Source of the DNA: Anastatus disparis
Lineage: Eukaryota; Arthropoda; Insecta; Hymenoptera; Eupelmidae
Direction of reading: 5' to 3'
Length of the DNA: 64,000 nt
NCBI GenBank assembly: GCA_017163975.1
Contig: JAFFSR010000280.1
Coordinates: 1,612,001-1,676,000, forward strand
Part shown: positions 320 through 58,567 of the stretch, piece by piece
How positions within the stretch are numbered: position 1 is the first letter of the stretch
Layout: the number at the start of each line of letters is the position of its first letter
Translations under genes and position numbers: made by a program
The notes under the pieces: model-generated
The model's database searches: none
Seen by the model: only the letters and a program-made list of their open reading frames with translations
What the model was told of the DNA's origin: nothing

Positions 320-328
320 GACTACTTA
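320..328. repeat. Left 9-bp target-site duplication
   Basis: GACTACTTA lies immediately outside the left inverted terminus (ATGAGTTTGAAG...). The identical 9-mer follows the right terminus at 58559-58567. Nine bases is the usual duplication length for Mutator-like elements. Confidence 0.93.
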
Positions 329-508
329 ATGAGTTTGAAGTTTGCACCGTTGTTCAACAACGGTATTTTGATATTTTTTTAAAATCATAATAACTCGCAG
401 TAACGTACTAAAACCATTGTAAAATGACAAAAAACATTAAATTATGCAATATTCACCCCTGTTTGACTCTTAAACGCCCCAAACTTCCCCCACGAGAAAA
501 ATTGCAAT
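329..508 (+). repeat. Left terminal inverted repeat (unique part)
   Basis: About 180 bp starting ATGAGTTTGAAGTTTGCACC. It matches the reverse complement of 58378-58558 with only a few differences: one base in the palindrome, a T-run length change, and CACGAG against CAGGAG. It includes a 17-bp palindrome at 347-363 and runs without a break into the first satellite unit. Confidence 0.93.
347..363. promoter_or_regulatory. Subterminal 17-bp palindrome, left end
   Basis: CCGTTGTTCAACAACGG is a perfect palindrome around a central C, 18 bp inside the left tip. The right end has the counterpart at 58524-58540, with one arm base changed. A transposase-recognition role is inferred only from its position and symmetry. 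Confidence 0.5.
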
Positions 509-3500
509 AAGGGTTAAAAACTTAAAAAAATCGTATCTCGCGATTTTATTAATTTACCGGAAATTTTCTTTTTTGTATTGGTTTTTTATATTAAAATACC
601 ATGATTATATAGGTTACAGCCCATTTGAGGAACAGGAACTACCCCTATATAAGGGTTGAAAACTTAAGAAAATCGTATCTCGCGATTTTATTTATTTACC
701 GGGAATTTTCTTTTTTGTATTGATTTTTTATATTAAAATACTATGATTATATGAGTTACAGCCCATTTGAGGAACAGGAACTACCCCTATATAAGGGTTG
801 AAAACTTAAAAAAATCGTATCTCGCGATTTTATGAATTTACCAGGAATTTTCTTTTTTGTATTGATTTTTTATATTGAAATACTATGATTATAGAGGTTA
901 CAGCCCATTCGAGGAACAGGAACTACCCCTATATAAGGGTTGAAAACTTAAAAAAATCGTATCTCGCGATTTTATGAATTTACCAGGAATTTTCTTTTTT
1001 GTATTGATTTTTTATATTAAAATACTATGATTATATGTGTTACAGCCCATTTGAGGAACAGGAACTACCCCTATATAAGGGTTGAAAACTTAAAAAAATC
1101 GTATCTCGCGATTTTATGAATTTACCAGAATTTTTCTTTTTGTATTGATTTTTTATCTAAAAATACTATGATTATATGAGTTACAGCCCATTTGAGGAAC
1201 AGGAACTACCCCTATATAAGGGTTGAAAGCTTAAAAAAATCGTATCTCGCGATTTTATTAATTTACCGGGAATTTTCTTTTTTCTATTGATTTTTTATAT
1301 TAAAATACTATGATTATATGAGTTACAGCCCATTTGAGGAACAGGAACTACCCCTATATAAGGGTTGAAAACTTAAAAAAATCGTATCTCGCGATTTTAT
1401 GAATTTACCAGGAATTTTCTTTTTGTATTGATTTTTTATATTGAAATACTATGATTATAGAGGTTACAGCCCATTCGAGGAACAGGAACTACCCCTATAT
1501 AAGGGTTGAAAACTTAAAAAAATCGTATCTCGCGATTTTATGAATTTACCAGGAATTTTCTTTTTTGTATTGATTTTTTATATTAAAATACTATGATTAT
1601 ATGAGTTACAGCCCATTTGAGGAACAGGAACTACCCCTATATAAGGGTTGAAAACTTAAAAAAATCGTATCTCGCAATTTTATTAATTTACCGGGAATTT
1701 TCTTATTTGTATTGATTTTTTATATTAAAATACTATGATTATATAAGTTACAGCCCATTTGAGGAACAGGAACTACCCCTATATAAGGGTTGAAAACTTA
1801 AAAAAATCGTATCTCGCGATTTTATGAATTTACCAGAAATTTTCTTTTTTGTATTGATTTTTTATATTAAAATACTATGATTATATGAGTTACAGCTCAT
1901 TTGAGGAACAGGAACTACCCCTATATAAGGGTTGAAAACTTAAAAAAATCGTATCTCGCGATTTTATGAATTTACCAGGAATTTTCTTTTTTGTATTGAT
2001 TTTTTATATTAAAATACTATGATTATATGAGTTACAGCCCATTTGAGGAACAGGAACTACTCCTATATAAGGGTTGAAAACTTAAAAAAATCGTATCTCG
2101 CAATTTTATTAATTTACCGGGAATTTTCTTATTTGTATTGATTTTTTATATTAAAATACTATGATTATATAGGTTACAGCCCATTTGAGGAACAGGAACT
2201 ACCCCTATATAAGGGTTGAAAACTTAAAAAAATCGTATCTCGCGATTTTATGAATTTACCAGGAATTTTCTTTTTTGTATTGATTTTTTATATTAAAATA
2301 CTATGATTATATGAGTTACAGCCCATTTGAGGAACAGGAACTACCCCTATATAAGGGTTGAAAACTTAAAAAAATCGTATCTCGCGATTTTATTAATTTA
2401 CCGGGAATTTTCTTTTTTCTATTGATTTTTTATATTAAAATACTATGATTATATGAGTTACAGCCCATTTGAGGAACAGGAACTACCCCTATATAAGGGT
2501 TGAAAACTTAAAAAAATCGTATCTCGCGATTTTATGAATTTACCAGGAATTTTCTTTTTTGTACTGATTTTTTATATTGTAATACTATGATTATAGAGGT
2601 TACAGCCCATTCGAGGAACAGGAACTACCCCTATATAAGGGTTGAAAACTTAAAAAAATCGTATCTCGCAATTTTATTAATTTACCGGGAATTTTCTTAT
2701 TTGTATTGATTTTTTATATTAAAATACTATGATTATATAAGTTACAGCCCATTTGAGGAACAGGAACTACCCCTATATAAGGGTTGAAAACTTAAAAAAA
2801 TCGTATCTCGCGATTTTATGAATTTACCAGGAATTTTCTTTTTTGTATTGATTTTTTATATAAAAATACTATGATTATATGAGTTACAGCCCATTTGAGG
2901 AACAGGAACTACCCCTATATAAGGGTTGAAAACTTAAAAAAATCGTATCTCGCGATTTTATTAATTTACCGGGAATTTTCTTTTTCTATTGATTTTTTAT
3001 ATTAAAATACTATGATTATATGAGTTACAGCCCATTTGAGAAACAGGAACTACCCCTATATAAGGGTTGAAAACTAAAAAAATCGTATCTCGCGATTTTA
3101 TTAATTTACCGGGAATTTTCTTTTTTCTATTGATTTTTTATATTAAAATACTATGATTATATGAGTTACGGCCCATTTGAGAAACAGGAACTACCCCTAT
3201 ATAAGGGTTGAAAACTTAAAAAAATCGTATCTCGCGATTTTATTAATTTACCGGGAATTTTCTTTTTCTATTGATTTTTTATATTAAAATACTATGATTA
3301 TATGAGTTACAGCCCATTTGAGAAACAGGAACTACCCCTATATAAGGGTTGAAAACTTAAAAAAATCGTATCTCGCGATTTTATTAATTTACCGGGAATT
3401 TTCTTTTTTCTATTGATTTTTTATATTAAAATACTATGATTATATGAGTTACAGCCCATTTGAGGAACAGGAACTACCCCTATATAAGGGTTGAAAACTT

Positions 3501-6500
3501 AAAAAAATCGTATCTCGCGATTTTATTAATTTACCGGGAATTTTCTTTTTTCTATTGATTTTTTATATTAAAATACTATGATTATATGAGTTACAGCCCA
3601 TTTGAGGAACAGGAACTACCCCTATATAAGGGTTGAAAACTTAAAAAAATCGTATCTCGCGATTTTATGAATTTACCAGGAATTTTCTTTTTTGTATTGA
3701 TTTTTTATATTGTAATACTATGATTATAGAGGTTACAGCCCATTCGAGGAACAGGAACTACCCCTATATAAGGGTTGAAAACTTAAAAAAATCGTATCTC
3801 GCAATTTTATTAATTTACCGGGAATTTTCTTATTTGTATTGATTTTTTATATTAAAATACTATGATTATATAAGTTACAGCCCATTTGAGGAACAGGAAC
3901 TACCCCTATATAAGGGTTGAAAACTTAAAAAAATCGTATCTCGCGATTTTATGAATTTACCAGGAATTTTCTTTTTGTATTGATTTTTTATATAAAAATA
4001 CTATGATTATATGAGTTACAGCCCATTTGAGGAACAGGAACTACCCCTATATAAGGGTTGAAAACTTAAAAAAATCGTATCTCGCGATTTTATTAATTTA
4101 CCGGGAATTTTCTCTTTTCTATTGATTTTTTATATTAAAATACTATGATTATATAAGTTACAGCCCATTTGAGGAACAGGAACTACCCCTATATAAGGGT
4201 TGAAAACTTAAAAAAATCGTATCTCGCGATTTTATGAATTTACCAGGAATTTTCTTTTTTGTATTGATTTTTTATATTAAAATACTATGATTACATGAGT
4301 TACAGCCCATTTGAGGAACAGGAACTACCCCTATATAAGGGTTGAAAACTTAAAAAAATCGTATCTCGCAATTTTATTAATTTACCGGGAATTTTCTTAT
4401 TTGTATTGATTTTTTATATTAAAATACTATGATTATATGAGTTACAGCCCATTTGAGAAACAGGAACTACCCCTATATAAGGGTTGAAAACTTAAAAAAA
4501 TCGTATCTCGCGATTTTATTAATTTACCAGGAATTTTCTTTTTTGTTTTGATTTTTTATATAAAAATACTATGATTATATGAGTTACAGCCCATTTGAGA
4601 AACAGGAAGTACCCCTATATAAGGGTTGAAAACTTAAAAAAATCGTATCTCGCAATTTTATTAATTTACCGGGAATTTTCTTATTTGTATTGATTTTTTA
4701 TATTAAAATACTATGATTATATAAGTTACAGCCCATTTGCGGAACAGGAACTACCCCTATATAAGGGTTGAAAACTTAAAAAAATCGTATCTCGCGATTT
4801 TATTAATTTACCGGGAATTTTCTTTTTTCTATTGATTTTTTATATTAAAATACTATGATTATATAAGTTACAGCCCATTTGAGGAACAGGAACTACCCCT
4901 ATATAAGGGTTGAAAACTTAAAAAAATCGTATCTCGCAATTTTATTAATTTACCGGGAATTTTCTTATTTGTATTGATTTTTTATATTAAAATACTATGA
5001 TTATATAAGTTACAGCCCATTTGAGGAACAGGAACTACCCCTATATAAGGGTTGAAAACTTAAAAAAATCGTATCTCGCGATTTTATTTATTTACCGGGA
5101 ATTTTCTTTTTTCTATTGATTTTTTATATTAAAATACTATGATTATATGAGTTACAGCCCATTTGAGAAACAGGAACTACCCCTATATAAGGGTTGAAAA
5201 CTTAAAAAAATCGTATCTCGCGATTTTATTAATTTACCGGGAATTTTCTCTTTTCTATTGATTTTTTATATTAAAATACTATGATTATATAAGTTACAGC
5301 CCATTTGAGGAACAGGAACTACCCCTATATAAGGGTTGAAAACTTAAAAAAATCGTATCTCGCCATTTTATTAATTTACCATGAATTTTCTTTTTTGTAT
5401 TGATTTTTTATATTAAAATACTATGATTATATAAGTTACAGCCCATTTGAGGAACAGGAACTACCCCTATATGAGGGTTGAAAACTTGAGAAAATCGTAT
5501 CTCGCAATTTTATTAATTTACCATGAATTTTCTTTTTTGTATTGATTTTTTATATTAAAATTCTATGATTATATAAGTTACAGCCCATTTGAGGAACAGG
5601 AACTACCCCTATATAAGGGTTGAAAACTTGAGAAAATCGTATCTCGCGATTTTATTAATTTACCGGGAATTTTCTTTTTTGTATTGATTTTTTATATCAA
5701 AATACTATGATTATATAAGTTACAGCCCATTTGAGGAACAGGAACTACCCCTATATGAGGGTTGAAAACTTAAAAAAATCGTATCTCGCGATTTTATGAA
5801 TTTACCAGGAATTTTCTTTTTTGTATTGATTTTTTATATTGAAATACTATGATTATATAAGTTACAGCCCATTTGAGGAACAGGAACTACCCCTATATAA
5901 GGGTTGAAAACTTAAAAAAATCGTATCTTGCAATTTTATTAATTCACCGGGAATTTTCTTATTTGTATTGATTTTTTATATTAAAATACTATGATTATAT
6001 AAGTTACAGCCCATTTGAGGAACAGGAACTACCCCTATATAAGGGTTGAAAAATTAAAAAAATCGTATCTCGCCATTTTATTAATTTACCATGAATTTTC
6101 TTTTTTGTATTGAATTTTTATATTAAAATACTATGATTATATAAGTTACAGCCCATTTGAGGAACAGGAACTACCCCTATATGAGGGTTGAAAACTTAAA
6201 AAAATCGTATCTCGCGATTTTATGAATTTACCAGGAATTTTCTTTTCGGTATTGATTTTTTATATTGAAATACTATGATTATATGAGTTACAGCCCATTT
6301 GAGGAACAGGAACTACCCCTATATAAGGGTTAAATACTTAAAAAAATCGTATCTCGCAATTTTATTAATTTACCGGGAATTTTCTTATTTGTATTGATTT
6401 TTTATATTAAAATACTATGATTATATGAGTTACAGCTCATTTGAGGAACAGGAACTACCCCTATATAAGGGTTGAAAACTTAAAAAAATCGTATCTCGCG

Positions 6501-9440
6501 ATCTTATGAATTTACCAGGAATTTTCTTTTTTGTATTGATTTTTTATATTAAAATACTATGATTATATGAGTTACAGCCCATTTGAGGAACAGGAACTAC
6601 CCCTATATAAGGGTTGAAAACTTAAAAAAATCGTATCTCGCAATTTTATTAATTTACCGGGAATTTTCTTTTTTGTATTGATTTTTTATATTAAAATACT
6701 ATGATTATATAAGTTACAGCCCATTTGAGGAACAGGAACTACCCCTATATGAGGGTTGAAAACTTAAAAAAATCGTATCTCGCGATTTTATGAATTTACC
6801 AGGAATTTTCTTTTTTGTATTGATTTTTTATATTGAAATACTATGATTATATAAGTTACAGCCCATTTGAGGAACAGGAACTACCCCTATATAAGGGTTG
6901 AAAACTTAAAAAAATCGTATCTCGCCATTTTATTAATTTACCGGGAATTTTCTTATTTGTATTGATTTTTTATATTAAAATACTATGATTATATAAGTTA
7001 CAGCCCATTTGAGGAACAGGAACTACCCCTATATAAGGGTTGAAAACTTAAAAAAATCGTATCTTGCCATTTTATAATCATATGAATTTTCTTTTTTGTA
7101 TTGATTTTTTATATTAAAATACTATTTATTATATGAGTTACAGCCCATTTGAGGAACAGGATATTACCCCAGGTTGAAAACTTAAAAAAATCGTATCTCG
7201 CCATTTTATTAATTTACCGGAAATTTTTTTTTTTTATTGATTTTTTATATTAAAATACTATGATTATATAAGTTACAGCCCATTTGAGGAACAGGAACTA
7301 CCCCTATATAAGGGTTGAAAACTTAAAAAAATCGTATCTCGCGATTTTATGAATTTACCAAGAATTTTCTTTTTTGTATTGATTTTTTATATTAAAATAC
7401 TATGATTATATGAGTTACAGCCCATTTGAGGAATAGGAACTACCCCTATATAAGGGTTGAAAACTTAAAAAAATCGTATCTCGCAATTTTATTAATTTAC
7501 CGGGAATTTTCTCATTTGTATTGATTTTTTATATTAAAATACTATGATTATATAAGTTACAGCCCATTTGAGGAACAGGAACTACCCCTATATAAGGGTT
7601 GAAAACTTGAGAAAATCGTATCTCGCGATCTTATGAATTTACCAGGAATTTTCTTTTTTGTATTGATTTTTTATATTAAAATACTATGATTATATGAGTT
7701 ACAGCCCATTTGAGGAACAGGAACTACCCCTATATAAGGGTTAAACACTTAAAAAAATCGTATCTCGCGATTTTATTAATTTACCGGGAATTTTCTTTTT
7801 TCTATTGATTTTTTATATTAAAATACTATGATTATATGAGTTACAGCCCATTTGAGGAACAGGAACTACCCCTATATAAGGGTTGAAAAATTAAAAAAAT
7901 CGTATCTCGCCATTTTATTAATTTACCATGAATTTTCTTTTTTGTATTGAATTTTTATATTAAAATACTATGATTATATAAGTTACAGCCCATTTGAGGA
8001 ACAGGAACTACCCCTATATGAGGGTTGAAAACTTAAAAAAATCGTATCTCGCGATTTTATGAATTTACCAGGAATTTTCTTTTCGGTATTGATTTTTTAT
8101 ATTGAAATACTATGATTATATAAGTTACAGCCCATTTGAGGAACAGGAACTACCCCTATATGAGGGTTGAGGAGAACTTAAAAAAACTTATCTCGCGATT
8201 TTATGAATTTACCAGGAATTTTCTTTTTGTATTGATTTTTATATTGAAATACTATGATTATATAAGTTACAGCCCATTTGAGGAACAGAAACTACCCTAT
8301 ATAAGGGTTGAAAACTTAAAAAAATCGTATCTCGCCATTTTTAATTTTCAGGAATTTTCTTATTTGTATTGATTTTTTATATTAAAATACTATGATTATA
8401 TAAGTTACAGCCCATTTGAGGAACAGGAACTACCCCTATATAAGGGTTGAAAACTTAAAAAAATCGTATCTTGCCATTTTATTAATTTACCATGAATTTT
8501 CTTTTTTGTATTGATTTTTTATATTAAAATACTATGATTATATGAGTTACAGCCCATTTGAGGAACAGGAACTACCCCTATATAAGGGTTGAAAACTTAA
8601 AAAAATCGTATCTCGCCATTTTATTAATTTACCGGGAATTTTCTTATTTGTATTGATTTTTTATATTAAAATACTATGATTATATAAGTTACAGCCCATT
8701 TGAGGAACAGGAACTACCCCTATATAAGGGTTGAAAACTTAAAAAAATCGTATCTCGCGATTTTATGAATTTACCAGGAATTTTCTTTTTTGTATTGATT
8801 TTTTATATTAAAATACTATGATTATATGAGTTACAGCCCATTTGAGGAATAGGAACTACCCCTATATAAGGGTTGAAAACTTAAAAAAATCGTATCTCGC
8901 AATTTTATTAATTTACCGGGAATTTTCTCATTTGTATTGATTTTTTATATTAAAATACTATGATTATATAAGTTACAGCCCATTTGAGGAACAGGAACTA
9001 CCCCTATATAAGGGTTGAAAACTTGAGAAAATCGTATCTCGCGATCTTATGAATTTACCAGGAATTTTCTTTTTTGTATTGATTTTTTATATTAAAATAC
9101 TATGATTATATGAGTTACAGCCCATTTGAGGAACAGGAACTACCCCTATATAAGGGTTAAACACTTAAAAAAATCGTATCTCGCGATTTTATTAATTTAC
9201 CGGGAATTTTCTTTTTTCTATTGATTTTTTATATTAAAATACTATGATTATATGAGTTACAGCCCATTTGAGGAACAGGAACTACCCCTATATAAGGGTT
9301 GAAAACTTAAAAAAATCGTATCTCGCAATTTTATTAATTTACCGGGAATTTTCTTATTTGTATTGATTTTTTTTATTAAAATACTATGATTATATAAGTT
9401 ACAGCCCATTTGAGGAACAGGAACTACCCCTATATAAGGA
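509..9440 (+). repeat. Left ~141-bp satellite array, homogeneous part (~63 units)
   Basis: The tandem unit is 141-142 bp and contains AGGAACAGGAACTACCCC, CTATATAAGGGTTG, ATCGTATCTCGCGATTTTA and TACTATGATTATAT. There are three main variants: GCGATTTTATG with ACCAGG; GCAATTTTATTA with CCGGG and CTTATTTG; and GCGATTTTATTA with CCGGG and TTTCTATTG. Higher-order duplications of about 10 and 13 units are visible. Every unit contains CCCTATATAAGGG, which is both a short palindrome and TATA-box-like. The short reading frames inside are products of the repeat and are not genes. Confidence 0.95.
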
Positions 9441-10830
9441 TGGAAAATTTTAAAAAATCTTATCTCGCGATTTTATGAATTTATTAGGAATTTTCTTTTT
9501 TTTATTTGTTTTTTATATTAAAATACAATGAGTATATAAGTTGCAGCCCATTTGAGGAACAGGGACTGCCCCTATACAAGGGTTGCAAATTTTAAAATTG
9601 GTATCTCGCAATTTTATTCATTAACCAGAAATTTTAACATTTGTACTGCTTTCCTATATTAAAATACAATGTTCATTCAAGTTACAGCCCATTGGAGGAA
9701 GAGGAACTACCCCTATACAAGGGTTGAAATTTTTTATAAATCGTATATTGCAATTTTATTTATTTACCAGGAATTTTATTTTTTGTACTTACTTTCTATA
9801 TTAAATTACAATGTTCATCGAAGTGACAGCCCATTTGAGAAACAGGAAGTAACCTTATATAAGGGTGGAAAATTTTCAAACATCGTAACTCGCTATATTA
9901 TTCATTTACCAGGAATTTTCCGTTTTCTAGTGCTTTTCTATATTGAAATAGAATGTTAATCAAGTTATAGCACATTTGAGGAAGAGGAATTACCCCTATA
10001 CAAGGGTTGAATATTTCAAAAAATCGTATCTCGCTATTTTATTTATTTACCAGCAATTTTCTTCTTTCTACCGCCTTTTAATAGTAAAACACAATGTTTA
10101 TCCAAGTTACAACCCATTTGAGGAAGAGGAGCTACCCCTATACAAGGGTTAAAAATTTTAGAAAATCGTATCTCGCAATTTTATTCATTCGCCAGCAATT
10201 TTCTTTCTTGTTCTGCCTTCCTATATTAAAATACAATGTTTATCCAAGTCGCAGCCCATTGGAGGAAGAGGGACTACCCTTATATAAGGGTTGAAAAATA
10301 AAAAAATAACGTAACTCGCAATTCAATTTATTTACCAGAAAGTATATTTTTTCTACTGCTTACCTATATTACAATTCAATGTTTATTGAAGTTACAGCCT
10401 ATTCGAGGAACAGGAAGTATTTTTATATAAGGGTTGAAAATTAATAAATAACGTAACTAACAATTTATCATTTACCAGCAATTTTCTTTTTTATAGTGCC
10501 TTTCCATATTCAAATACAATGTTCATCTAAGGTTTAGCCTATTTGAGGAAGAGGAACTACCCCTATAGAAGGGTAGAAAATTTTTAAAAATCGTATCTTG
10601 CAATTTTATTTATTTACTAGGAATTTTCTTTTTTGTACTGACTTTATATATTAAAATACCTGTTTATAAGGGTTGTAAATTTTAAAAAGGCTTATCTTGC
10701 TTTTTTGTTTATTTACCAGGAATTTTATTTTTCGTATTAGTTTCTTATATTAAATTACAATGTTCATTTAAGTTTAATTTCATTTCAGGGACATGAAGTA
10801 CTCCTATATAAGGGTATACAATTCATAATT
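9441..10830 (+). repeat. Left satellite array, diverged inner part (~10 units)
   Basis: This carries the same ~141-bp unit but with many substitutions and indels, for example CTATACAAGGG in place of CTATATAAGGG and GAGGAAGAGG in place of GAGGAACAGG. Identity falls steadily towards the element interior until the unit is unrecognisable near 10.83 kb. Confidence 0.88.
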
Positions 10831-11586
10831 ATTTTATCCCAGAATTTTGTTAATTTACTTGAAACTTTCCTTAAAGTAATAAAGCAGTAGCGCGCGTTTT
10901 CTTTCTTTTCTCTTTTTTTATAATGTTTTATGGTTAACCCTTTTTTCCCCAACATTGTTTCAACTTGCACGCCCAAGCAAAGGTTTCTTATTTTAGTTAT
11001 CACGGGCTTATTATTTCAAACATTTAAGTTGCTAAAAATTTTCAAATTAAAAATAAATCAATTATTGAAGTAAGCCTAATTATTTGAATCTATTTTTTTG
11101 GATTTTATAATTTGTAAATTTTAAAGTTATTTTAAAATTAAATGAAACGGATATGGAACCTAAATGTACATTTATCAGTTCTATTATTCCGCAAATCAGT
11201 TTTATTTGTGTGGGCCAGTCCCAAAGACATGAGCTTCATTAGTCTTTTTAAATCTATAAATATATAAGTGAAATCTGATAAAAATTTTGAATCATACATA
11301 TTTAAAATAACTTATGCTTTTTTGTACTTACCAATTATTCTTTTTCAATTAAAAGATTTGGCGTTTCATTATATTTATTTGATTATCTTCCATTTTTAAA
11401 CAAGTCAAGCGATTTTTCTCGTATTTCCCGTTTAATTCATCGCGAGTTACTAGTTTCATGTTAGCTCATTTATTCTATGATACATTTTATTTTCTTTACA
11501 TGATTTTTCCTGTTTATTATTTTCAACATAATTATATTATTTCCATAGCTGCATATTTGTTTATCTTTTTTATCGTACGTTTTTTT
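10831..11586. other. AT-rich spacer, nothing recognised
   Basis: Non-repetitive AT-rich sequence between the decayed end of the satellite and the 577-bp array. No coding frame with supporting features was found. Confidence 0.6.
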
Positions 11587-14540: not shown

Positions 14541-14620
14541 GATATCAATAATGTCCGCATAAATTCGTTAGTTTTACCACTGTTTCCGACAACTTTTCCA
14601 TTATATCAATTGCATTACAC

Positions 14621-20251: not shown

Positions 20252-22082
20252 TGACGTAGCGATCTACGAAAAACAAAACATTTTTACTTTCGCGAACCTA
20301 ACTGATTTATAATTTAAATAATTTTTCAGTCTTTAAAAACAAAAAAAGAAACCATATAATCATTACTTTCAATTATTGATTGAATACAACATAAAAAACA
20401 TGAAATAAATTTACTTTTGTCATTTATAATAACATTTTACTATAATATTCTATTATTCTTATTAACACTTTATAAGAAATTGGATATATTCTTAGGACAA
20501 GCTACTTCTGTGGTGTTTACCTTCATTATTAATATTGTATATTATATTCACATATAACAATATTTGTCGGTTGCTTCATGAACTACTTACAATAGTTGTT
20601 CAAATGTGCAATTGCAATGTTGACGATTTAACAGTACATGTTATTTGCACTTACCTTTTCAAAATATAAAGTTATTTTATTTCATTTTATTCAATAATAT
20701 ATACATTATTAAATTATTGTATTTGCAACTATATATTTATTTTCAACTTTTGTAAACATTATAATTTAAACAACATTGTTTTATAATCCTCCGGTAAAAA
20801 GTACGCCGTTATTTGTAAAAATCGTGCGTGAGAAATAAAGCATTTTGGTCGGATGGGATGTTAACTCTGTTCAGTAGATTTCGTTGTATTTGTTACGAGG
20901 AATTTTTTTTGGAATTTGTCCGGAATAAAATAATTTTATTATTAAAGTTATGACAAAAGTGGATTATTAATTGCTCACGTATAGTCTATACGCGAGCGTT
21001 TACTACTTACGTTTTTCCCCTATATAAATTATATACTATTTTATTGTAATTATCATAATATTATAGTTACCATCTAGCATACAGCTATTCAAATATGAAG
21101 GTTCATAATATATCGGGTTATTTATAAAAAAAGCATGTAATTAAAAGAATATAAACTTTTGGTAAGCATTAATATTCTATTAATAGGTGCTCCCCTATTT
21201 CATTTAGTGTGGTGGCAGTATCTACTTTTTCGTTACAATTCATAATAATGTTTTTACATCGAAGTAAGACCACTCTTCCATACATTGAAAAATAATAAAA
21301 CGATTGTCATTTATGAAAAAAGAATTTCATAATTATTCAAGAAAAGTATACAACGGAAAAAACAGTTAAACCTCCTTTTATCAATTGATTTTATATTTTA
21401 AACCAAAAGTTATTAAATTTATTTAGTTTTTTATAGAATAGAATCGTGTCAAAATTCATTAATCAATGGGAGACAACTCTTAGTTATGTATCAAAATATG
21501 TAGTTCATTAATATTAACGACAATCTAAATTAAAGTAGAATAAAGGTACATGACCGTTTCTTAAGCTTTGCAGTCCAGGAAATGATGATAATTCATATTA
21601 TAGTATTACAAAGAGCCAATATGCATTTTCAACTAATTAATACAGCTGAAAATTTTAAATAATGGCGGACACGTATATATAAGCAAACTATACAGTATAA
21701 AAATTATTGTTTATTGTAATGTGGTATGTCACTTATACTTAAGATTCATAATATAAATAAAACATATAAATTTTATACGGTTCATATTCCATAAACGTTT
21801 TCAAAATGTTGAATAAATAATAAAATACAATAATAAAGAAATCTATACAACATTGAGCGTTGCAGTGAAAGAGATTATTGTAAATTTATATTAAGATAAA
21901 AAAAAAAATTTATTTTTAATCGATTCATATTGCTTTCTCATAGGGAAAGCATTGTATCGGCAAAAAAACATTATTTTATATTTTTTCATTAATTTGTACA
22001 TATTCGACGGTGCTTACGAAGACAATCACCGTCACATTAGCGACGAAGACTATCACTTCCAGAAGATACGACGAAAAAATAT
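20252..22082. other. Upstream region of the transposase gene, no gene seen
   Basis: AT-rich 1.8 kb containing the presumed promoter and 5' UTR of the minus-strand gene. No TATA box or initiator could be assigned with confidence. A short palindrome, GCTCACGTATAG / CTATACGCGAGC, lies near 20971-20997. Confidence 0.5.
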
Positions 22083-32440: not shown

Positions 32441-32464
32441 TTTTTCTTTATTATATATATTATA

Positions 32465-38290: not shown

Positions 38291-38688
38291 TTAAGAGGAG
38301 GCCGTATCATTCTGTCCTTGTCTAATCTAAATTTTCGTTATTATAAATAAATAAAATATTTTCATAGAAAAGTAAGACAACCGCCCAATAGAGCAAAAGA
38401 CAAGCAAACGATTCTTTTCTATGAAAAAATATGAAATTTTGATTATTTTTCGAGTGAAGTCTGAAACGGAAAAACAATCGAACTTGATTGAGTTGATTTG
38501 ACTGTTTTTTCGTTTCAGACTTCACTCGAAAAATAATCAAAATTTCATATTTTTTCATAGAAAAGAATCGTTTGCTTGTCTTTTGCTCTATTGGGCGGTT
38601 GTCTTACTTTTTTATGAAAATGTTTTATTTATTTATAATAACGAAAATTTAGATTAGACAAGGACAGAATGATACGGCCGCCTCTTAA
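38291..38688. mobile_element. 398-bp TTAA-flanked palindromic MITE
   Basis: Runs from TTAAGAGGAGGCCGTATCAT to ATGATACGGCCGCCTCTTAA and is a near-perfect palindrome over its whole length, centred near 38490. TTAA at both ends is the target-site type of piggyBac-like elements. The terminus GAGGmGG is shared with the element at 52142-52646. The short frames inside are mirror images and not genes. Confidence 0.85.
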
Positions 38689-46600: not shown

Positions 46601-49556
46601 AATAGTAAGAAAGTATGAAAGAGAGTACTAAGAATCACCGTTTTTCAAAATTGACATGATTTTGTGTGCGTTCATGCTGCTGTACTTTTAACAAACATGA
46701 CTCTGGTTCAAATTATTAATTCACAATATTTGAAATAGAAAATAAAAATTTACTTTCTCTTCTTTCATAACGGTTATTGTAAATTAGTTGAAGAAATTTC
46801 CAGAATTAATTGTTTAACTTAAATCAGAAGCTCTATTTTAATACGCTTCTTTAAAAATTATGATTACAAAAAAAAATATAAAAGTCCAAGACTTGAATTT
46901 TTTCACGTAGGTTTACTGATGTTTTATTTTTCTCTGCATGTACGCACATCCGTAAATAGAAATATAATAAATGTAATTATTAAAATATACTTCATGCAGC
47001 TCTGGCGCCGCAGGAATCACAGGATCGCTATAGGAATACTTGCACACCTCCAAAGGAGTAAGTTTCATAATCTTCAAAAATATTATTATAAAATTGAATT
47101 AGAGTGTTATATCGTATCTTGAGACGAATGTAGATATATATCGTAATTTCCTTCAAAACGCGTAATCGATATTTCGGTGAATAAAAATGAGAGTAACCGT
47201 GGTGGTATACATTGAAAAAATGTTGTAACCATTTTATGACCATTACTTTGAAATGAATAGTTGAAAATGTCAATTTTTAGGCTATTATTTTAACGAATAT
47301 GAAACGCACATCTTCGATGATTAAAATAATTTAATGTGTAAAATTGTTTGAAACGATTCATTTTTTAATGTTTTTTATTTTTTAAACAAGTTTTATAATT
47401 TGAACGTTAAGGCATAAATTGTAAAGTTTGAAATAGTGAATGAAAAGTATGTATTGAATTAATAGGTTAACTTATTTGTAGATCCTTAAAATGCAGACTT
47501 TACAGACAAAATATTACAATTAGCATTATTTGTTTATAAAGAAAATTTTGGCTCTGCATATTCTACAAAAATTTACAATTTATTAGCCGATATTGACATG
47601 AAAAAAAATTAGTGTTATTAATGGCCATAAATTGTAATATACACGATATTTTATTCAACTTTTGTACTGGGAAATGTGTCGATTGTGATTCAATAAAAAA
47701 ATGTCTCTAATGCTATTGAAAAAAAGTATATGGTAATAAAATGTAGCTACGTATCGTACTGAAATACTCTTATAAAAAATTTTGAAATTTGACAATGAGA
47801 TACAAATTTATTTGAAAAATTACTGAAGTTTCCACCTTTATATTATCTTGCGAAATGCAAATATTTTTAGAAGTGTACACGAATATAAAACGTTTTTTAA
47901 ATGTAAGCGAGATATTACATTTGTCTCATCGAAAGATAAATAATGACACTTAATTTTTAAATAAATATTAATTGTATTTAATTAATTTCAGGGAAGAAAC
48001 AGTTTGGAAAAAATTAAAGAGAGAGTAAGTTGATTTATAATGTAAAAATATTTGAACCTTTTCAATTATGTCATTATTTGTCATTAATTATATAATAGCT
48101 AATATAGAATTATGAAGTATCAGAAATAACCGGGGAGATTATGGCAATTTGATGAGTGTTCAATTATTGTTTTGAAATTGCAAATTACAGTATTTTAAAA
48201 TAATCCACAAACTTGCAGTAAGAGATAAATGGTGATTAATGATTAAAAGGTCTTTAATTAATTATTAAAAATAGTCCAAAATTCGGAAAAAAATTAAAAT
48301 ATATATTTAAAACCTTTCTTTAGTTAATCCACTCGTTTTTACTTTAAAAATTTATTTGTTATGTTAAAAATGTATTAAAGAAAAGCTGCTAAAATCCACT
48401 ATTTAAAAAATATACATTTCTAACGCTTAAAAAAAAATAAAATTTGAAAAGGGCGACAACCTTCCAAATCTTACATAGTAAAATTTTTTGTTGAAGAAGG
48501 TATGTTTATTTTGCAATATAAAAGTAGTATTTTTGTGGAAAAAAAAATTGGCGTTTTGTACAGAAAGCAAACATAATGTTCATAAAAAGTGTTAAATTAT
48601 TTTAAAAACAAGTCTTTAAAATAAATGATTTCTAATAAGAAATGTATTATTCAATACCATAGGTACTATAAAAACATAAATATGATCGATTTTAATCGCA
48701 TATGTTTACACATACATACATATATATTAACGCATATATCTTTTAGCCCTTTTATCAATTATTTGCTAATAAAACACATAATAAAGCTTAAATTGAATAA
48801 TAATTGAAAAATCATAAATGTTTTTTTATAATATACTTAAAAACCATGAAAAAAAGTTGTTCTGATATTAATATTTATGACATTGCGGTTACGCTGGATG
48901 TACAAAACCACAGAATTTAGAAACATTTTATTAAAACAGCTACCGAATAAAGACGAAGAAAGCAATTGAAATAATACTTATTAGTCTTTCAAGTAAAAGA
49001 TTAAAATATTGTGTACATTTCGGTTGAAGTCTCAGTTACTTAAATTCAATAGGGTTAGGTACTTAGACCAATTAGGGTTGAAATTATGTGTAGGAGCATA
49101 ATAAATAATTTTCATATTTTTACAGTTATCCATATGAGCATGTGTACACGGACGCGCAGTTCTACGAGGAAAAGGCGCACAATAATTATAAGGTAAAGAA
49201 ATTATAATTAGTTAAAAATTTTCCGTACACATAAAACATCTTAAATGGCCATTATATTGTTTTAGCAATTGCAAAATGCAAGAGCTCAAATAAGGCGTCT
49301 GAATAATGATGTGAGAAATAAAAACGACAGAATCTTAAACCTCCAAGAGGACTTGTTGAGAGAAAAAGTTAGTATGAAAGATTTATTAAAATTAAACAGT
49401 TTCCTCTTCAATTTGTCACGGAAAAATGATGAAATTGAAGAACGTAAAAATTAATTATGTATTTATTAATGTATACATGTTTTTCAGAATAGGAACTTGT
49501 ATAGAGACGACTACCGTAACAGCTTTAACGAGTATCCATCCAAGCGTCGTTATTAA
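40690..49556 (+). CDS. Nine-exon accessory gene, 214-aa basic Ser/Asn-rich coiled-coil protein with putative SIM
   Basis: Join 40690-40808, 41764-41844, 42482-42553, 46196-46239, 47000-47057, 47992-48024, 49126-49192, 49266-49367, 49488-49556. All introns are GT-AG, seven with GTAAG or GTAAA donors. The nine exons (119, 81, 72, 44, 58, 33, 67, 102 and 69 nt) keep one open frame of 645 nt ending TAA, and AATAAA follows 30 bp later. The ATG has A at -3. No signal peptide is seen. Residues ~35-95 are Ser/Asn/His-rich. QQEEDLIILG (exon 4) fits a SUMO-interacting motif: hydrophobic LIIL after acidic residues. WKKLKR may be a nuclear signal. Exon 8 (QLQNARAQIRRLNND...) is a probable coiled coil. 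The tail is Arg/Tyr-rich (NRNLYRDDYRN...SKRRY). I do not recognise the family. A helper role like that of mudrB in MuDR is only an analogy. Further exons in the 3.6-kb intron 3 cannot be excluded. Confidence 0.75.
41961..45330 (+). repeat. Diverged intronic tandem duplication
   Basis: Sequence from ~41961 to ~43200 recurs at ~43363-45300 with many changes. Paired landmarks: ATGAAAAACAGTATT at 41965 and 43366; TTTTTATTTATTAACAT at ~42189 and ~44488; GATTTGCT with TATAAAATATG-like text at ~42849 and ~44839; GGATTCTCTTTTATTTG near 43155 and its partner near 45250. Copy 2 lacks the segment holding exon 3 (42482-42553) and has about 0.9 kb of extra sequence. Confidence 0.7.
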
Positions 49557-49585
49557 ATAATATGTAATTTTCCTAAGTCAAGTAA

Positions 49586-49591
49586 AATAAA
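49586..49591 (+). promoter_or_regulatory. Polyadenylation signal AATAAA
   Basis: AATAAA lies 30 bp after the stop codon of the nine-exon gene, with a second AATAAA about 12 bp further on. This supports the predicted 3' end. Confidence 0.6.
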
Positions 49592-49599
49592 TACATAAT

Positions 49600-51167
49600 A
49601 AATAATTTATTGTTTATTCTTAATACAGTCAAAAATACGATATATTCACCCTAGTAAAACAAATGAATTATTTTCAGAAAAACATTATGTTTTATTTTAG
49701 ATTACAAAGGTATCAAGCTAATTTTTTTTACTTCAAAGCATCTTATGTTATCTGCTCTTCGGATGTTTCTCAGTTGACAACATAAAATAAATTTAAATCG
49801 AAATTGTTCAACATAATAATAAAAATATTTATAAAAAAAAAAGATGCCTCAAGGGCCCAAGAAAAACTAGTGGTTTTCAAATCTAAAATAAAACATAGAT
49901 CTTTTTCAATCTCAAATAAACATAAGTTATTGTTGAACTTGGCTAACTACCTACTTATATTATTTTTTCGATATATATAAATATATAGATAAATAGACGT
50001 TGACATTATTCTCTAAAAAATGCCGAAAACTTGTAATACTATGTATAAAATAAATAGAAAAACTCTAAATAGAAATATTGCAATTAAAGTTGTTATCGAA
50101 GTAAATTAGCTTTAGCAAGTAATAATGAAATAAAGGATATCGCCGATTAAAAATAATAATTACAAGATTGAATACATACAATAATACCCGAAGAGAATTT
50201 TTCCATAAAAATTACGGTGACGGTCACTGCAATCGATGAACATCATAGAATACTAATAAAAAATAATAAGATATTACCGTAAAAATTTGATGAAATTGTG
50301 TACAAATGTTTTTACGGTGACATCTCGTAATTTTTCATAATATTCTACGATATCTCGATCGTAGTGACCGTCACCGTAATTTATATAGAAAAATTCTCTC
50401 TGTGTAGTATGAAGTGTAAAAAAGGCTTCGTATTTCATGAAGTCATAATGTCGAAAGTTAGGGTGGTTCCTCCATGCAGGTCCGTATGTTGAGGGCGCTT
50501 AGCCAGGGGCCACACTCAATGCATAAATTCTTAGTATTATAAATAAAAAATTCATTCTAAACACTTTATTTATAAAAATTAAGAAAATGTATTCAATATT
50601 TTTAAATAATACTAAAATAAAATGTAATTTTATAAAATTTAATTATTTATACGTTCCAGAACATATTGGAATTCCGGCAACGTTGTGAAATTTGGTTTTT
50701 TATATTATTATTTATTAAATATGGTGAGACTCATATCCTAACTAAAATGTAAGATTTGCTAAAGAAACGAGATGCCTGTATAAATTTTTATTGCACAACA
50801 TTGTGAAGTATTACAGAATCATAATTAAAATTAATTTTTTTCAATTTTTTTTGTAATATTCAATATTTTTTTTTGAGATTCATCAACCTCCTGCTTTTTT
50901 TATATGTTCTAAATCTATGAATTCTGCAGAATTCAATAGTTTTTTATTAATATATGTTCATTTGAAATGATAAAAATATTAAGTTAAAACATGAAATTAA
51001 GGGTTACAATACTAAATTATATTATAAAACACTAAATTTCAAATTCGTTATTTTATATAATTTCATCGATAAATGAGACTGCAATTTAATAAATATAAAA
51101 ATGTAGGTTTTATTTACGAAGTGCTAAATTTTGATAATATTTTGTTCATGTATGTCTCATGGAATAA
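49600..51167. other. Intergenic, contains one MITE
   Basis: AT-rich sequence with the palindrome at 50192-50399 and a short GC-richer patch at 50461-50515 (GAGGGCGCTTAGCCAGGGGC) that does not fold as a tRNA and has no recognised coding content. Confidence 0.5.
50192..50399. mobile_element. ~208-bp palindromic MITE
   Basis: AGAGAATTTTTCC and ATTACGGTGACGGTCACT on the left pair with AGTGACCGTCACCGTAAT and GAAAAATTCTCT on the right. A second inner pair, TATTACCGTAAAAA with TTTTTACGGTGA, lies near the centre. No clear target-site duplication. Confidence 0.75.
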
Positions 51168-51458
51168 CTACCATAAATGAAATAAAAAATACAGAGTGCT
51201 TGCAATAACAAAAGAAGCAATCAATAGAATAAAATTAAATACAAAACAGACTCTCCAATTATTAATACAATAACAACAGTCGCATTTTAAGGGAGTTGGA
51301 TAGATCTCTTGAAGGGCAAGCGGTGCAAAGGATAGTCCTATGCTTATACACGTAAGTTTGATAGCTATGCCAACTTTAAATGAAAAAAATTTCACTTCCT
51401 TCAATACTGAGTCTATCAATGAAATTTCGAAGAAATTATTATCAGATCGATTTTTCTA
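51168..51458 (-). CDS. Possible terminal exon encoding a small two-helix membrane segment
   Basis: On the minus strand, the frame opens after AATAATAG (a possible 3' splice site) near 51458 and runs about 96 codons to TAG at 51168, with no internal ATG start. The peptide has a hydrophobic stretch (VGIAIKLTCISIGLSFAPLA), a short Cys-rich loop (CDCCYC) and a second hydrophobic stretch (FNFILLIASFVIASTLYFLF). Its composition is more protein-like than neighbouring frames. I do not recognise a family and could not find a partner exon. A decayed exon or a chance frame are alternatives. Confidence 0.22.
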
Positions 51459-52646: not shown

Positions 52647-53129
52647 GAAGCGTGCAATATACAGACGCGTCAGACTTTTGCGCGACGTTGCCATGTTCAA
52701 CAGCTTAACATCAAAATCTTATAAAATTGTTGTTTAATATAAAAATTATCAAAATAATTCGATTGTAAGTCAAGTATTTCTTTTTTGAACTTGATCATAA
52801 ATATTGAAACTTTCGATAACATATTTAGTTTTATTGTTTTTCTTATTTTCAAAGCAGTTATTTAGTATTAATGACAAGATCTCGTATATCACCTATGAAA
52901 AGCTTCTATATAAAGCTTTAATTTTGGTTAAATTTTTGAAATATGCTGCATTCGTAATTGTCCTGGAAATTACACACAATATTTAAGTTTACAGCAATTA
53001 AATGTAATAATATAAGATCTACTCTTATTCTATTAATTTCATTATTCAAGCTCCTTGAATGCATATATTAAAAAGAAGAAATATGAAGAAAAAATTAAAA
53101 GTTAATTAGAAAAATAAGGAAATACCATA
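52647..53129. other. AT-rich spacer, nothing recognised
   Basis: Sequence between the TTAA element and the first recognisable satellite remnant. Only a short hydrophobic frame without support is present. Confidence 0.5.
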
Positions 53130-53820
53130 TTTCGAAATTTTGAATCCCTATATAAGGGCAGTGTATGTCCCTTAAGTGGGCTGTAACTTGCATAAACGTT
53201 GAATTTTATTGTAGAAAACTCATTAAAAAAAGTTATTCCAGGTAAATTAATAAACTCATGAGATACGATTTTTATACATTTTCAATCCTTATATAAAGGT
53301 AGTTTCTGTCTTTAAAATGACCTATAACTTGAATAAACGTCAAATTGTATGGTACAAAACCGAGGCAAATTAATAAAATCGGGAAATACGATTTTTTAAA
53401 ATTTCAAACACTTATATAGAGGTAGTTCCTGTCCCTCAAATAAGCTCAAACTTGGATAAACGTTAAATTTCATTGTAGGAAACCTATAAAAAATAAAAAA
53501 TTGTAGGTGAATTGATAAAATCCGGAGATACGATGTTTTTAAATTTTCTAACCTTATGTAAGGTCTGTTCTTGTCCCACCAATTGACTGTAAATTTATTA
53601 AACATTGTATTTTCAAATAAAAAAAAACATAACAAAGAAAATTTCTAGTAAACTAATAAAATTGAGAGATACGATTTTTTAAAACTTTCTACCCCTCCCT
53701 AGGGGTGTTCCTGTCCCTCAAATAAAAGATTACTTGGAAAAACGTAAAATTTTATTATAGGAAAACCACACAAAGAAGAAAATTTCTGGTACATTAATAA
53801 AATAGCGAGATAGGATTTTT
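53130..53820 (-). repeat. Right satellite array, diverged inner part (~5 units)
   Basis: Reverse-complement copies of the ~141-bp unit, strongly diverged, such as TATAAGGGCAGTGTATGTCCC and TATAGAGGTAGTTCCTGTCCC. Divergence falls towards 53.9 kb. This mirrors the decayed inner part of the left array. Confidence 0.85.
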
Positions 53821-56800
53821 TTACAATTTGCAACCGTTATATAGGGGTAGTTCCTGTTCCTCAAATGGGCTGTAACTTATATAATCATAGTATTTTAATA
53901 TAAAAAATCAATACAAATAAGATAAATCCCGGTAAATTCATAAAATCGCGAGTTATTATTTTTTTTAATTTTCAACCCCTATATAGGGGTAGTTCCTCTT
54001 TCTCAAATGGGCTGTAACTCATATAATCATAGTATTTTAATATAAAAAACCAATACAAATAAGAAAATTCCCGGTAAATTAATAAAATTGCGAGATACGA
54101 TTTTTTTAAGTTTTCAACCCTTATATAGGGGTAGTTCCTGTTCCTGAAATGGGCTGTAACTCATATAATCATAGTATTTTAATATAAAAAATCAATAGAA
54201 AAAAGAAAATTCCCGGTAAATTAATAAAATCGCGAGATACGATTTTTTTAAGTTTTCAACCCTTATATAGGGGTAGTTCCTGTTCCTCAAATGGGCTGTA
54301 ACTTATATAATCATAGTATTTTAATATAAAAAATCAATAGAAAAAAGAAAATTCCCGGTAAATTAATAAAATCGCGAGATACGATTTTTTTAAGTTTTCA
54401 ACCCTTATATAGGGGTAGTTCCTGTTCCTCAAATGGGCTGTAACTTATATAATCATAGTATTTCAATATAAAAATCAATACCAAAAAGAAAATTCCTGGT
54501 AAATTAATAAAATCGCTAGATACGATTTTTTTAAGTTTTCAACCCTTATATAGGGGTAGTTCCTGTTCCTCAAATGGGCTGTAACTTATATAATCATAGT
54601 ATTTTAATATAAAAAATCAATAGAAAAAAGAAAATTCCCGGTAAATTAATAAAATCGCGAGATACGATTTTTTTAAGTTTTCAACCCTTATATAGGGGTA
54701 GTTCCTGTTCCTCAAATGGGCTGTAACTTATATAATCATAGTATTTCAATATAAAAAATCAATACCAAAAAGAAAATTCCTGGTAAATTAATAAAATCGC
54801 TAGATACGATTTTTTTAAGTTTTCAACCCTCATATAGGGGTAGTTCCTGTTCCTCAAATGGGCTGTAACTTATATAATCATAGTATTTTAATATAAAAAA
54901 TCAATACAAATAAGAAAATTCCCGGTAAATTAATAAAATTGCGAGATACGATTTTTTTAAGTTTTCAACCCTTATATAGGGGTAGTTCCTGTTCCTCGAA
55001 TGGGCTGTAACTTATATAATCATAGTATTTTAATATAAAAAATCAATAGAAAAAAGAAAATTCCCGGTAAATTAATAAAATCGCGAGATACGATTTTTTT
55101 AAGTTTTCAACCCTCATATAGGGGTAGTTCCTGTTCCTCAAATGGGCTGTAACTTATATAATCATAGTATTTTAATATAAAAAATCAATACAAATAAGAA
55201 AATTCCCGGTAAATTAATAAAATTGCGAGATACGATTTTTTTAAGTTTTCAACCCTTATATAGGGGTAGTTCCTGTTCCTCAAATGGGCTGTAACTCATA
55301 TAATCATAGTATTTTAATATAAAAAATCAATACAAAAAAGAAAATTCCTGGTAAATTCATAAAATCGCGAGATACGATTTTTTTAAGTTTTCAACCCTTA
55401 TATAGGGGTAGTTCCTGTTCCTCAAATAAGCTGTAACTCATATAATCATAGTATTTTAATATAAAAAATCAATAGAAAAAAGAAAATTCCCGGTAAATTA
55501 ATAAAATCGCGAGATACGATTTTTTTAAGTTTTCAACCCTCATATAGGGGTAGTTCCTGTTCCTCAAATGGGCTGTAACCTATATAATCATAGTATTTTA
55601 ATATAAAAAATCAATAGAAATAAGAAAATTCCCGGTAAATTAATAAAATTGCGAGATACGATTTTTTTAAGTTTTCAACCCTTATATAGGAGTAGTTCCT
55701 GTTCCTCAAATGGGCTGTAACTCATATAATCATAGTATTTTAATATAAAAAATCAATACAAAAAAGAAAATTCCTGGTAAATTCATAAAATCGCGAGATA
55801 CGATTTTTTTAAGTTTTCAACCCTTATATAGGGGTAGTTCCTGTTCCTCAAATGAGCTGTAACTCATATAATCATAGTATTTTAATATAAAAAATCAATA
55901 CAAAAAAGAAAATTTCTGGTAAATTCATAAAATCGCGAGATACGATTTTTTTAAGTTTTCAACCCTTATATAGGGGTAGTTCCTGTTCCTCAAATGGGCT
56001 GTAACTTATATAATCATAGTATTTTAATATAAAAAATCAATACAAATAAGAAAATTCCCGGTAAATTAATAAAATTGCGAGATACGATTTTTTTAAGTTT
56101 TCAACCCTTATATAGGGGTAGTTCCTGTTCCTCAAATGGGCTGTAACTCATATAATCATAGTATTTTAATATAAAAATCAATACAAAAAGAAAATTCCTG
56201 GTAAATTCATAAAATCGCGAGATACGATTTTTTAAGTTTTCAACCCTTATATAGGGGTAGTTCCTATTCCTCAAATGGGCTGTAACTCATATAATCATAG
56301 TATTTTAATATAAAAAATCAATAGAAAAAAGAGAATTCCCGGTAAATTAATTAAATCGCGAGATACGATTTTTTTAAGTTTTCAACCCTTATATAGGGGT
56401 AGTTCCTGTTCCTCAAATGGGCTGTAACTCATATAATCATAGTATTTTTAGATAAAAAATCAATACAAAAAAGAAAATTCCTGGTAAATTCATAAAATCG
56501 CGAGATACGATTTTTTTAAGTTTTCAACCCTTATATAGGGGTAGTTCCTGTTCCTCAAATGTGCTGTAACTCATATAATCATAGTATTTTAATATAAAAA
56601 ATCAATACAAAAAAGAAAATTCCTGGTAAATTCATAAAATCGCGAGATACGATTTTTTTAAGTTTTCAACCCTTATATAGGGGTAGTTCCTGTTCCTCAA
56701 ATGGGCTGTAACCTATATAATCATAGTATTTTAATATAAAAAATCAATACAAATAAGAAAATTCCCGGTAAATTAATAAAATTGCGAGATACGATTTTTT

Positions 56801-58377
56801 TAAGTTTTCAACCCTTATATAGGAGTAGTTCCTGTTCCTCAAATGGGCTGTAACTCATATAATCATAGTATTTTAATATAAAAAATCAATACAAAAAAGA
56901 AAATTCCTGGTAAATTCATAAAATCGCGAGATACGATTTTTTTAAGTTTTCAACCCTTATATAGGGGTAGTTCCTGTTCCTCAAATGAGCTGTAACTCAT
57001 ATAATCATAGTATTTTAATATAAAAAATCAATACAAAAAAGAAAATTTCTGGTTAATTCATAAAATCGCGAGATACGATTTTTTTAAGTTTTCAACCCTT
57101 ATATAGGGGTAGTTCCTGTTCCTCAAATGGGCTGTAACTTATATAATCATAGTATTTTAATATAAAAAATCAATACAAATAAGAAAATTCCCGGTAAATT
57201 AATAAAATTGCGAGATACGATTTTTTTAAGTTTTCAACCCTTATATAGGGGTAGTTCCTGTTCCTCAAATGGGCTGTAACTCATATAATCATAGTATTTT
57301 AATATAAAAAATCAATACAAAAAAGAAAATTCCTGGTAAATTCATAAAATCGCGAGATACGATTTTTTTAAGTTTTCAACCCTTATATAGGGGTAGTTCC
57401 TGTTCCTCGAATGGGCTGTAACCTCTATAATCATAGTATTTCAATATAAAAAATCAATACAAAAAAGAAAATTCCTGGTAAATTCATAAAATCGCGAGAT
57501 ACGATTTTTTTAAGTTTTCAACCCTTATATAGGGGTAGTTCCTGTTCCTCAAATGGGCTGTAACTCATATAATCATAGTATTTTAATATAAAAAATCAAT
57601 AGAAAAAAGAAAATTCCCGGTAAATTAATAAAATCGCGAGATACGATTTTTTTAAGCTTTCAACCCTTATATAGGGGTAGTTCCTGTTCCTCAAATGGGC
57701 TGTAACTCATATAATCATAGTATTTTTAGATAAAAAATCAATACAAAAAAGAAAATTCCTGGTAAATTCATAAAATCGCGAGATACGATTTTTTTAAGTT
57801 TTCAACCCTTATATAGGGGTAGTTCCTGTTCCTCAAATGGGCTGTAACTCATATAATCATAGTATTTTAATATAAAAAATCAATACAAAAAAGAAAATTC
57901 CTGGTAAATTCTAAAAATCGCGAGATACGATTTTTTTAAGTTTTCAACCCTTATATAGGGGTAGTTCCTGTTCCTCGAATGGGCTGTAACTCATATAATC
58001 ATAGTATTTTAATATAAAAAATCAATACAAAAAAGAAAATTCCTGGTAAATTCATAAAATCGCGAGATACGATTTTTTTAAGTTTTCAACCCTTATATAG
58101 GGGTAGTTCCTGTTCCTCAAATGAGCTGTAACTCATATAATCATAGTATTTTAATATAAAAAATCAATAGAAAAAAGAAAATTCCCGGTAAATTAATAAA
58201 ATCGCGAGATACGATTTTCTTAAGTTTTCAACCCTTATATAGGGGTAGTTCCTGTTCCTCAAATGGGCTGTAACCTATATAATCATAGTATTTTAATATA
58301 AAAAACCAATACAAAAAAGAAAATTCCCGGTAAATTAATAAAATCGCGAGATACGATTTTTTTAAGTTTTTAACCCT
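53821..58377 (-). repeat. Right ~141-bp satellite array, homogeneous part (~32 units)
   Basis: The same unit and the same variant types as the left array, in inverted orientation (CCTATATAGGGG in the first units, then CAACCCTTATATAGGGGTAG). A higher-order duplication of about 8 units is visible: GTAACCTATATAATC at ~55575 and ~56711, and ATAGGAGTAGTT at ~55686 and ~56820. The final unit runs into the right terminus. Confidence 0.95.
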
Positions 58378-58558
58378 TATTGCAATTTTTCTCCTGGGGG
58401 AAGTTTGGGGCGTTTAAGAGTCAAACAGGGGTGAATATTGCATAATTTAATGTTTTTTGTCATTTTACAATGGTTTTAGTACGTTACTGCGAGTTATTAT
58501 GATTTTTAAAAAATATCAAAATATCGTTGTTGAACAACGGTGCAAACTTCAAACTCAT
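58378..58558 (-). repeat. Right terminal inverted repeat (unique part)
   Basis: Reverse complement of 329-508 with only a few differences, ending CTTCAAACTCAT at the element border. Holds the counterpart palindrome at 58524-58540. Confidence 0.93.
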
Positions 58559-58567
58559 GACTACTTA
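58559..58567. repeat. Right 9-bp target-site duplication
   Basis: GACTACTTA, identical to 320-328, directly follows the last base of the right terminus. Confidence 0.93.

Follow-up and report, generated by a model that had tools for sequence, protein, structure and literature searches.

We analysed a 64,000-nucleotide stretch of the Anastatus disparis genome, called the window here (contig JAFFSR010000280.1 of GCA_017163975.1; C275:1612001-1676000 in the 939-Mb, 399-contig assembly), and found that positions 329-58558 are one DNA transposon with matched tips and a flanking 9-bp duplication. We consider it likely that this is a single, probably autonomous cut-and-paste element from the Rehavkus/foldback branch of the Mutator-like elements (MULEs) that has grown to 58,230 bp. 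We favour this reading because of the target-site duplication (TSD) and tips, two satellite arms that are in register, an intact transposase-like open reading frame (ORF1), copies elsewhere that share the tips and lack the ORF, and a second giant element on another contig, C4. The borders of the element are as follows.

320-328, plus strand: left TSD, GACTACTTA
329-510, plus strand: left terminal inverted repeat (TIR) tip, 182 bp
58377-58558, minus strand: right TIR tip
58559-58567, plus strand: right TSD, GACTACTTA

The 9-mer occurs exactly twice in the window, at these two borders, and its reverse complement is absent from the window. Random positions outside the arrays shared a 9-mer in 116 of 2,000,000 draws (5.8e-5), and positions drawn over the whole window did so in 339 of 2,000,000; since shared 9-mers are this rare, a duplication lying exactly at both tips is not a chance event. 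Aligned without gaps over 182 bp, the tips (329-510 against 58558-58377) differ at 3 positions, and their similarity runs on into the arrays. The left tip contains a perfect palindrome, CCGTTGTTCAACAACGG, at 347-363, and no third copy of the tip (query 329-506) was found within the window. A first-pass annotation, made from the letters of the window, had proposed a single element of about 58 kb with a perfect 9-bp TSD and inverted tips with few differences over about 180 bp, and these data bear it out on both points. It had also proposed searching the assembly with the tip, which indeed recurs, including in other two-ended copies that give independent support for the borders.

Inside each tip lies an array of tandem satellite.

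507-10872, plus strand: left arm, 142-bp satellite array, decaying inward to 10872
53066-58380, minus strand: right arm, inverted 142-bp array, decaying inward

Tandem Repeats Finder resolved 71.7 copies of a 142-bp unit in the left arm (507-10659) and 35.3 inverted copies of a 142-bp unit in the right (53367-58380). An alignment of the arms that starts at the tips held 18 mismatches and 2 gap columns over its first 1988 columns (99%, in register), with several satellite units identical between arms, and the match was weaker further in. The unit comparison was confined to the 84 units that measure exactly 142 bp. Their mean identity was 0.945 in the left arm, 0.947 in the right and 0.946 across the two arms; for 34 of these 84, the nearest relative lay in the opposite arm. 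The two arms look as if they had evolved in concert within one molecule, for which conversion or exchange between the arms may be responsible. Satellite units of 142-165 bp in this genome, like the 164-bp unit of Rehavkus-1_TC, are near nucleosome size, and one may speculate that this size has a role in chromatin.

The tips and arms also bear on two other explanations. Two separate foldbacks could flank host DNA and have moved it by their outermost ends, as the available text describes for the Drosophila TE of Ising, where such ends moved everything between them (PMC6431247), and loopless foldbacks of the present family do exist. Such a composite would be expected to carry inner tips, yet the tip lies only at the two outer ends, and the arms, followed inward from the tips, stay in register like the halves of one element; we rejected this reading for want of inner tips in the window and consider it improbable. 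Satellite arms are hard to assemble, and unrelated arms might have been joined artificially through the satellite. However, the 9-bp TSD at both outer ends, the register between the arms and the second element of the same plan on C4 leave very little room for such an artefact.

The coding part of the element lies between the left arm and a long loop.

11526-14381, plus strand: tandem repeats of about 577 bp, 4-5 units, between the left arm and the 3' end of ORF1
14621-20263, minus strand: ORF1, 1880 aa, intact, transposase-like (OTU, DDE core, Ulp1-like protease, PHD-like tail)
19394-19903, minus strand: OTU-like cysteine protease region, residues about 121-290, with C146 and H266
16244-17308, minus strand: DDE region, residues 986-1340, with D993, D1066, C1111xxH1114, W1274, W1281 and E1302
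14849-15538, minus strand: Ulp1-like (C48) protease region, residues 1576-1805, with H1694, D1711, Q1758 and C1766
14624-14848, minus strand: PHD-like Cys-rich tail, residues 1806-1880, with weak profile matches

Pfam recognized OTU in ORF1 (E 1.9e-5), and a search of solved structures placed Ulp1 at residues 1602-1801 (E 3.6e-5). At the level of motifs, the two aspartates, the CxxH, the tryptophans and E1302 follow the MULE pattern of a DDE enzyme with CxxH and W between the second D and the E, as described for Muta1 in the available text (PMC5225508). The tail matched KIAA1045 in the PDB with an E of 0.28, and 7 of 7 tested cysteines in it are kept in the related protein encoded on C4. NCBIfam gave no match for either protein, and neither ORF1 nor the satellite core matched viral contigs.

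To place the window copy among its relatives, we turn to the tip matches in the assembly, which number at least 29. Twelve of these, at 96-100% identity, belong to the same family and comprise five pairs (the window, C245 at 9.6 kb, C220 at 15.7 kb, C27 at 16.1 kb and C227 at 2.0 kb) and single ends on C224 and C259. The C245 and C227 copies are two arms back to back, and in the C220 and C27 copies the right arm contains other DNA, about 3 kb and 9.8 kb long, respectively. ORF1 coding sequence is absent from all 12 extracts read, of which the single-end extracts (C224, C259 and C23) span 10-20 kb only. A script demanding a perfect 9-bp duplication passed the C220 copy and none of the eight further pairs given to it; judged by eye, the flanks show duplications of 8 bp at C245 and 7 bp each at C27 and C227. 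The last two are not independent, since the flanks at C27:4799149 and C227:10387615 are reverse-complementary over 14 bases, and these sites may share one repeat or have been co-duplicated. C254, whose right tip is partial, has no duplication in its flanks.

The remaining 17 tip matches, at 73-83% identity, we take as sister families. Four sister copies (C66, C328, C227 at 15.8 Mb and C149) lie against a common flanking sequence, in one orientation or the other, and their duplication is 8 bp long, CGTTTAAG. When the insert is removed by eye, their shared insertion site contains GACTCTTAAACGCCC, which is also present in the tip of the window element (465-479), so these four foldbacks look nested in the tips of related elements. 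Of the single ends, that at C259:482714 is followed by about 13 kb of the 142-bp array and has no other end among the tip matches. The tip at C224:12821659 has no array, and its 20-kb extract holds elsewhere a 999-aa frame that we take to resemble a non-long-terminal-repeat element.

A protein search with ORF1 returned at least 38 matches from the best 25 of 4008 first-look candidates scored, which is not a full census; among those listed, only the window had a full-length match. The most informative relative is at C4:8911391-8916409, an intact 1673-aa ORF that is colinear with ORF1 through OTU (34% identity), DDE (48%), Ulp1 (47%) and the Cys-rich tail (34%). The two proteins have in common the Cys and His of OTU, the DDE, CxxH and W residues, and the His, Asp, Gln and Cys of Ulp1, and in the C4 protein Pfam found only OTU and a sub-threshold integrase match (E 0.025). 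This ORF is followed by a 152-bp array of 49.5 copies that runs up to the extract edge, with an inverted partner array of 152 bp at C4:8943355-8951123. Tips at C4:8878512 and 8951316 are identical at 147 of 147 bases and carry CGTTGT-ACAACG at about the same distance as CCGTTGTTCAACAACGG in the window. We read from this an element of 72.8 kb at about 8878510-8951318, its outer border set by analogy from the ATG start of the tip, a reading that leaves out the left TSD and 22.5 kb inside the left tip; the 9 bp to the right of 8951318 are AAAACACAA. Together, these findings indicate from sequence that giant size is also found in a second family within this genome.

Seven more relatives were chosen from other contigs of the ORF1 search, and a 5-kb piece beyond each ORF1-like match was inspected. 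Four of the seven have arrays within 6 kb of the match, with units of about 163 bp (C303), 152 bp (C320), 165 bp (C343) and 152 bp (C296), and 152-bp units also occur about 13 kb past the match on C271. Paired tips like those of C4 (80-97%) stand 9-14 kb apart at C103:421253-435421, C281:530061-542972, C269:5136840-5149159 and C261:821067-830381.

The two giants also share the placement of a long loop. In the window, the 32 kb between ORF1 and the right arm contain palindromic and inverted repeats and a multi-exon gene model, gene 2.

20905-53065, no strand: long loop
22526-25848, no strand: repeat unit with inverted ends of about 670 bp (91%)
23191-25016: present again, inverted, at 30577-32447 (87%)
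38291-38688, no strand: palindromic repeat, 94.7% self-complementary
40690-49556, plus strand: gene 2 model, 8 exons, 203 aa, no known domain
40690-40808, 41764-41844, 42482-42553, 46196-46239, plus strand: gene 2 exons 1-4
47000-47057, 49126-49192, 49266-49367, 49488-49556, plus strand: gene 2 exons 5-8
50458-51177, no strand: common interspersed repeat of about 720 bp, at least 39 genomic places (84-88%)

The predicted exons of gene 2 have AG/GT borders (one donor being GTTAGT), consistent phases and 612 coding bases ending in a stop. The two genes proposed in the first-pass annotation can accordingly be read, as far as the sequence goes, as one transposase-like ORF and one multi-exon gene model. 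For the loop, copy number in the assembly was assessed over 49060-49600, which holds the last exons of gene 2 and has one DNA match, the window itself, a search that a diverged paralogue would escape. A search with 18 kb of the loop was dominated by one repeat, with the best 39 of 7062 candidates scored and the window itself not among them. Sequence 82% similar to the palindrome at 38291-38688 interrupts the array of the C259:482714 copy.

The C4 loop is 27 kb long and occupies the same place, between the 5' end of the ORF and the right arm. Over the 23.1 of 26.9 kb read, it has only scattered repeats in common with the window loop, and the exons of gene 2 gave only noise there in a comparison insensitive to a diverged homologue. 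The two giants thus carry loops of different content but of one size class and at one position, a comparison that favours acquired DNA over an element gene specific to one family as the source of the 32-kb loop.

When this DNA entered is a separate question. A Rehavkus-like element of about 26 kb, made up of the arms, ORF1 and the 577-bp repeats, may have inserted first, with the loop and gene 2 arriving later by nested insertion or segmental rearrangement, so that the 58 kb never moved as a unit. The closest relative of ORF1 among the matches listed, a degenerate relic at C259:4930192-4945937, speaks for this history: it matches ORF1 in pieces at 44-86% identity and is interrupted at residue 1186 by about 9 kb. 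It has the 577-bp repeats in common with the window, and its homology extends over 640 bp upstream of the ORF and ends near 20904 (827 bp more of the relic's upstream DNA was read). The loop is moreover rich in repeats and palindromes and is absent from all four other two-ended copies of the family. On the other hand, the unrelated 27-kb loop at the same place on C4 shows that a long loop recurs, and no single nested element bringing gene 2 was delimited. We regard late entry of the loop as a serious contender, if somewhat less probable than its opposite.

Several candidates for the identity of loop sequences were set aside. For gene 2, DUF5798 (E 0.003, below the cut-off), LMBR1 (0.56) and BCR and SMC2 chains (0.43-1.9) were not credible, and a CFAP299 match for 50277-50498 (E 0.69), partially overlapping the common repeat, was dismissed. 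The loop has 143 ORFs of at least 48 aa, of which 138 were scanned after 5 low-complexity ones were dropped, and Pfam gave only four isolated matches among them (E 0.006-0.009), all implausible. The same 138 ORFs, a set that excludes shorter exons, have no Pfam match to Polinton/Maverick genes at E up to 0.01, and ORF1 has no Pfam match to Polinton/Maverick DNA polymerase B, integrase or capsid at E up to 1. Thirty ORFs of the right flank had no Pfam match at E up to 0.01, and neither Rfam (at gathering thresholds) nor ARAGORN found anything in the window.

A number of observations count against a single autonomous element of the Rehavkus/foldback branch. No Pfam transposase family matches ORF1 at E up to 1, and a single-sequence AlphaFold2 model of residues 830-1330 had a mean predicted local distance difference test score of 34.1, gave no support for a fold and was not used. 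The PHD assignment of the tail is weak (E 0.009-0.28, the Pfam matches being below the cut-off), and H1833, the one His tested, is Gln in the C4 protein. There is no second intact ORF1 copy among the matches listed, the close relative being a broken relic. Three of the seven further relatives (C382, C271 and C223) have no long array in the 5-kb piece, and of the four other same-family pairs, three lack a perfect 9-bp duplication. Finally, among the same-family copies read, the loop is present in the window copy alone and may have entered after insertion.

Next to these points stands a close resemblance to published elements, described here from the available parts of the papers. Rehavkus has a 9-bp TSD, TIRs of 26-400 bp, one ORF, a PHD finger and a minisatellite by the 3' TIR, and is reported from arthropods and annelids (PMC6446971). 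The likeness is one of layout as described: the 9-bp TSD recurs in the window and on C220 (8, 7 and 7 bp by eye in the other same-family pairs), the 182-bp tip falls within the TIR range, with in-register homology here of about 2 kb, satellite adjoins the TIR in both the window element and C4, and there is a single transposase-like ORF. The PHD-like tail of that ORF is matched weakly. OTU and Ulp1, both present in ORF1, are unmentioned in the available text of that paper. Rehavkus-1_TC of Tribolium is 9.5 kb long, with a 164-bp satellite in its inverted termini and mostly five and eight monomers (PMC10218199), whereas the two elements here measure 58.2 and 72.8 kb and the window arms hold 72 and 35 monomers.

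Most foldback elements, though not all, are placed in Mutator (PMC4079207, PMC3169594). Tetris, for which no transposase-encoding copy is known according to the text available (PMC4079207), and Tm1, with a 496-aa transposase and repeats of about 14 bp (PMC3169594), share with the present family inverted arms of tandem repeats, TSDs of 8-10 bp and non-coding copies; the difference is that here one genome has both an ORF-bearing 58-kb copy and loopless ones. Canonical arthropod MULEs likewise have a DDE enzyme with CxxH and W and TSDs of 8-9 bp (PMC5225508, PMC13359780), and Muta1 has a long TIR with subterminal tandem repeats (PMC5225508). A 2026 survey of arthropods, in which Rehavkus is an outgroup only, gives MULEs of 1.4-10.0 kb with ORFs of 313-1136 aa (PMC13359780), in contrast to 58 kb and 1880 aa here. 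Teratorn and Starship elements resemble the window element in size class and cargo capacity, but Teratorn combines a piggyBac-like transposase with herpesvirus genes (PMC6431247) and Starships use a tyrosine recombinase, and the portions of text examined make no mention of satellite arms in either.

We met no Rehavkus or foldback element of this size among the titles and abstract openings surveyed, a set outside which lie most subscription papers and Repbase. The published figures agree with the earlier remark that 58 kb is far outside the norm, and in the sources available only size falls outside the published range found for the relatives. Of the suggestion of an undescribed class of MULE-like element, the MULE-like character is supported by the DDE/CxxH/W motif and the 9-bp TSD, but the undescribed class is not, the Rehavkus layout having already been published. 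The element is best described as a Rehavkus-type foldback element of giant size and not as an undescribed class.

We infer from its sequence that the element is mobile, and propose how it might work. The DDE enzyme would bind the tips, perhaps at the palindrome about 18 bp in, cut both ends and insert the element with a stagger of 7-9 bp. The inverted satellite arms would grow by unequal exchange and be homogenized between arms by conversion, and recombination between arms could delete the loop and leave loopless foldback copies that the enzyme would still move in trans. OTU and Ulp1 may free the enzyme, or silenced chromatin, of ubiquitin or SUMO, and the 32-kb loop upstream of ORF1, with its nested repeats and gene 2, would be acquired DNA tolerated as cargo.

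To judge from C4, the genome holds at least one further giant of the Rehavkus-type foldback kind. The two elements, at 58 and 73 kb, have intact transposase-like genes and follow one plan with unrelated satellites. They suggest a source of satellite DNA, and a multi-exon gene inside one of them, which could be either cargo or an accessory gene, makes gene carriage testable. Our broadest reading, which we offer tentatively and hold to be possible rather than probable, is that giant cut-and-paste transposons of 58-73 kb form a recurrent class in animal genomes. By virtue of the satellite arms, an enzyme of Rehavkus type would be able to mobilize acquired DNA tens of kilobases long, entire single-copy genes and their introns among it, and such elements would be an animal counterpart of the Starship cargo elements.

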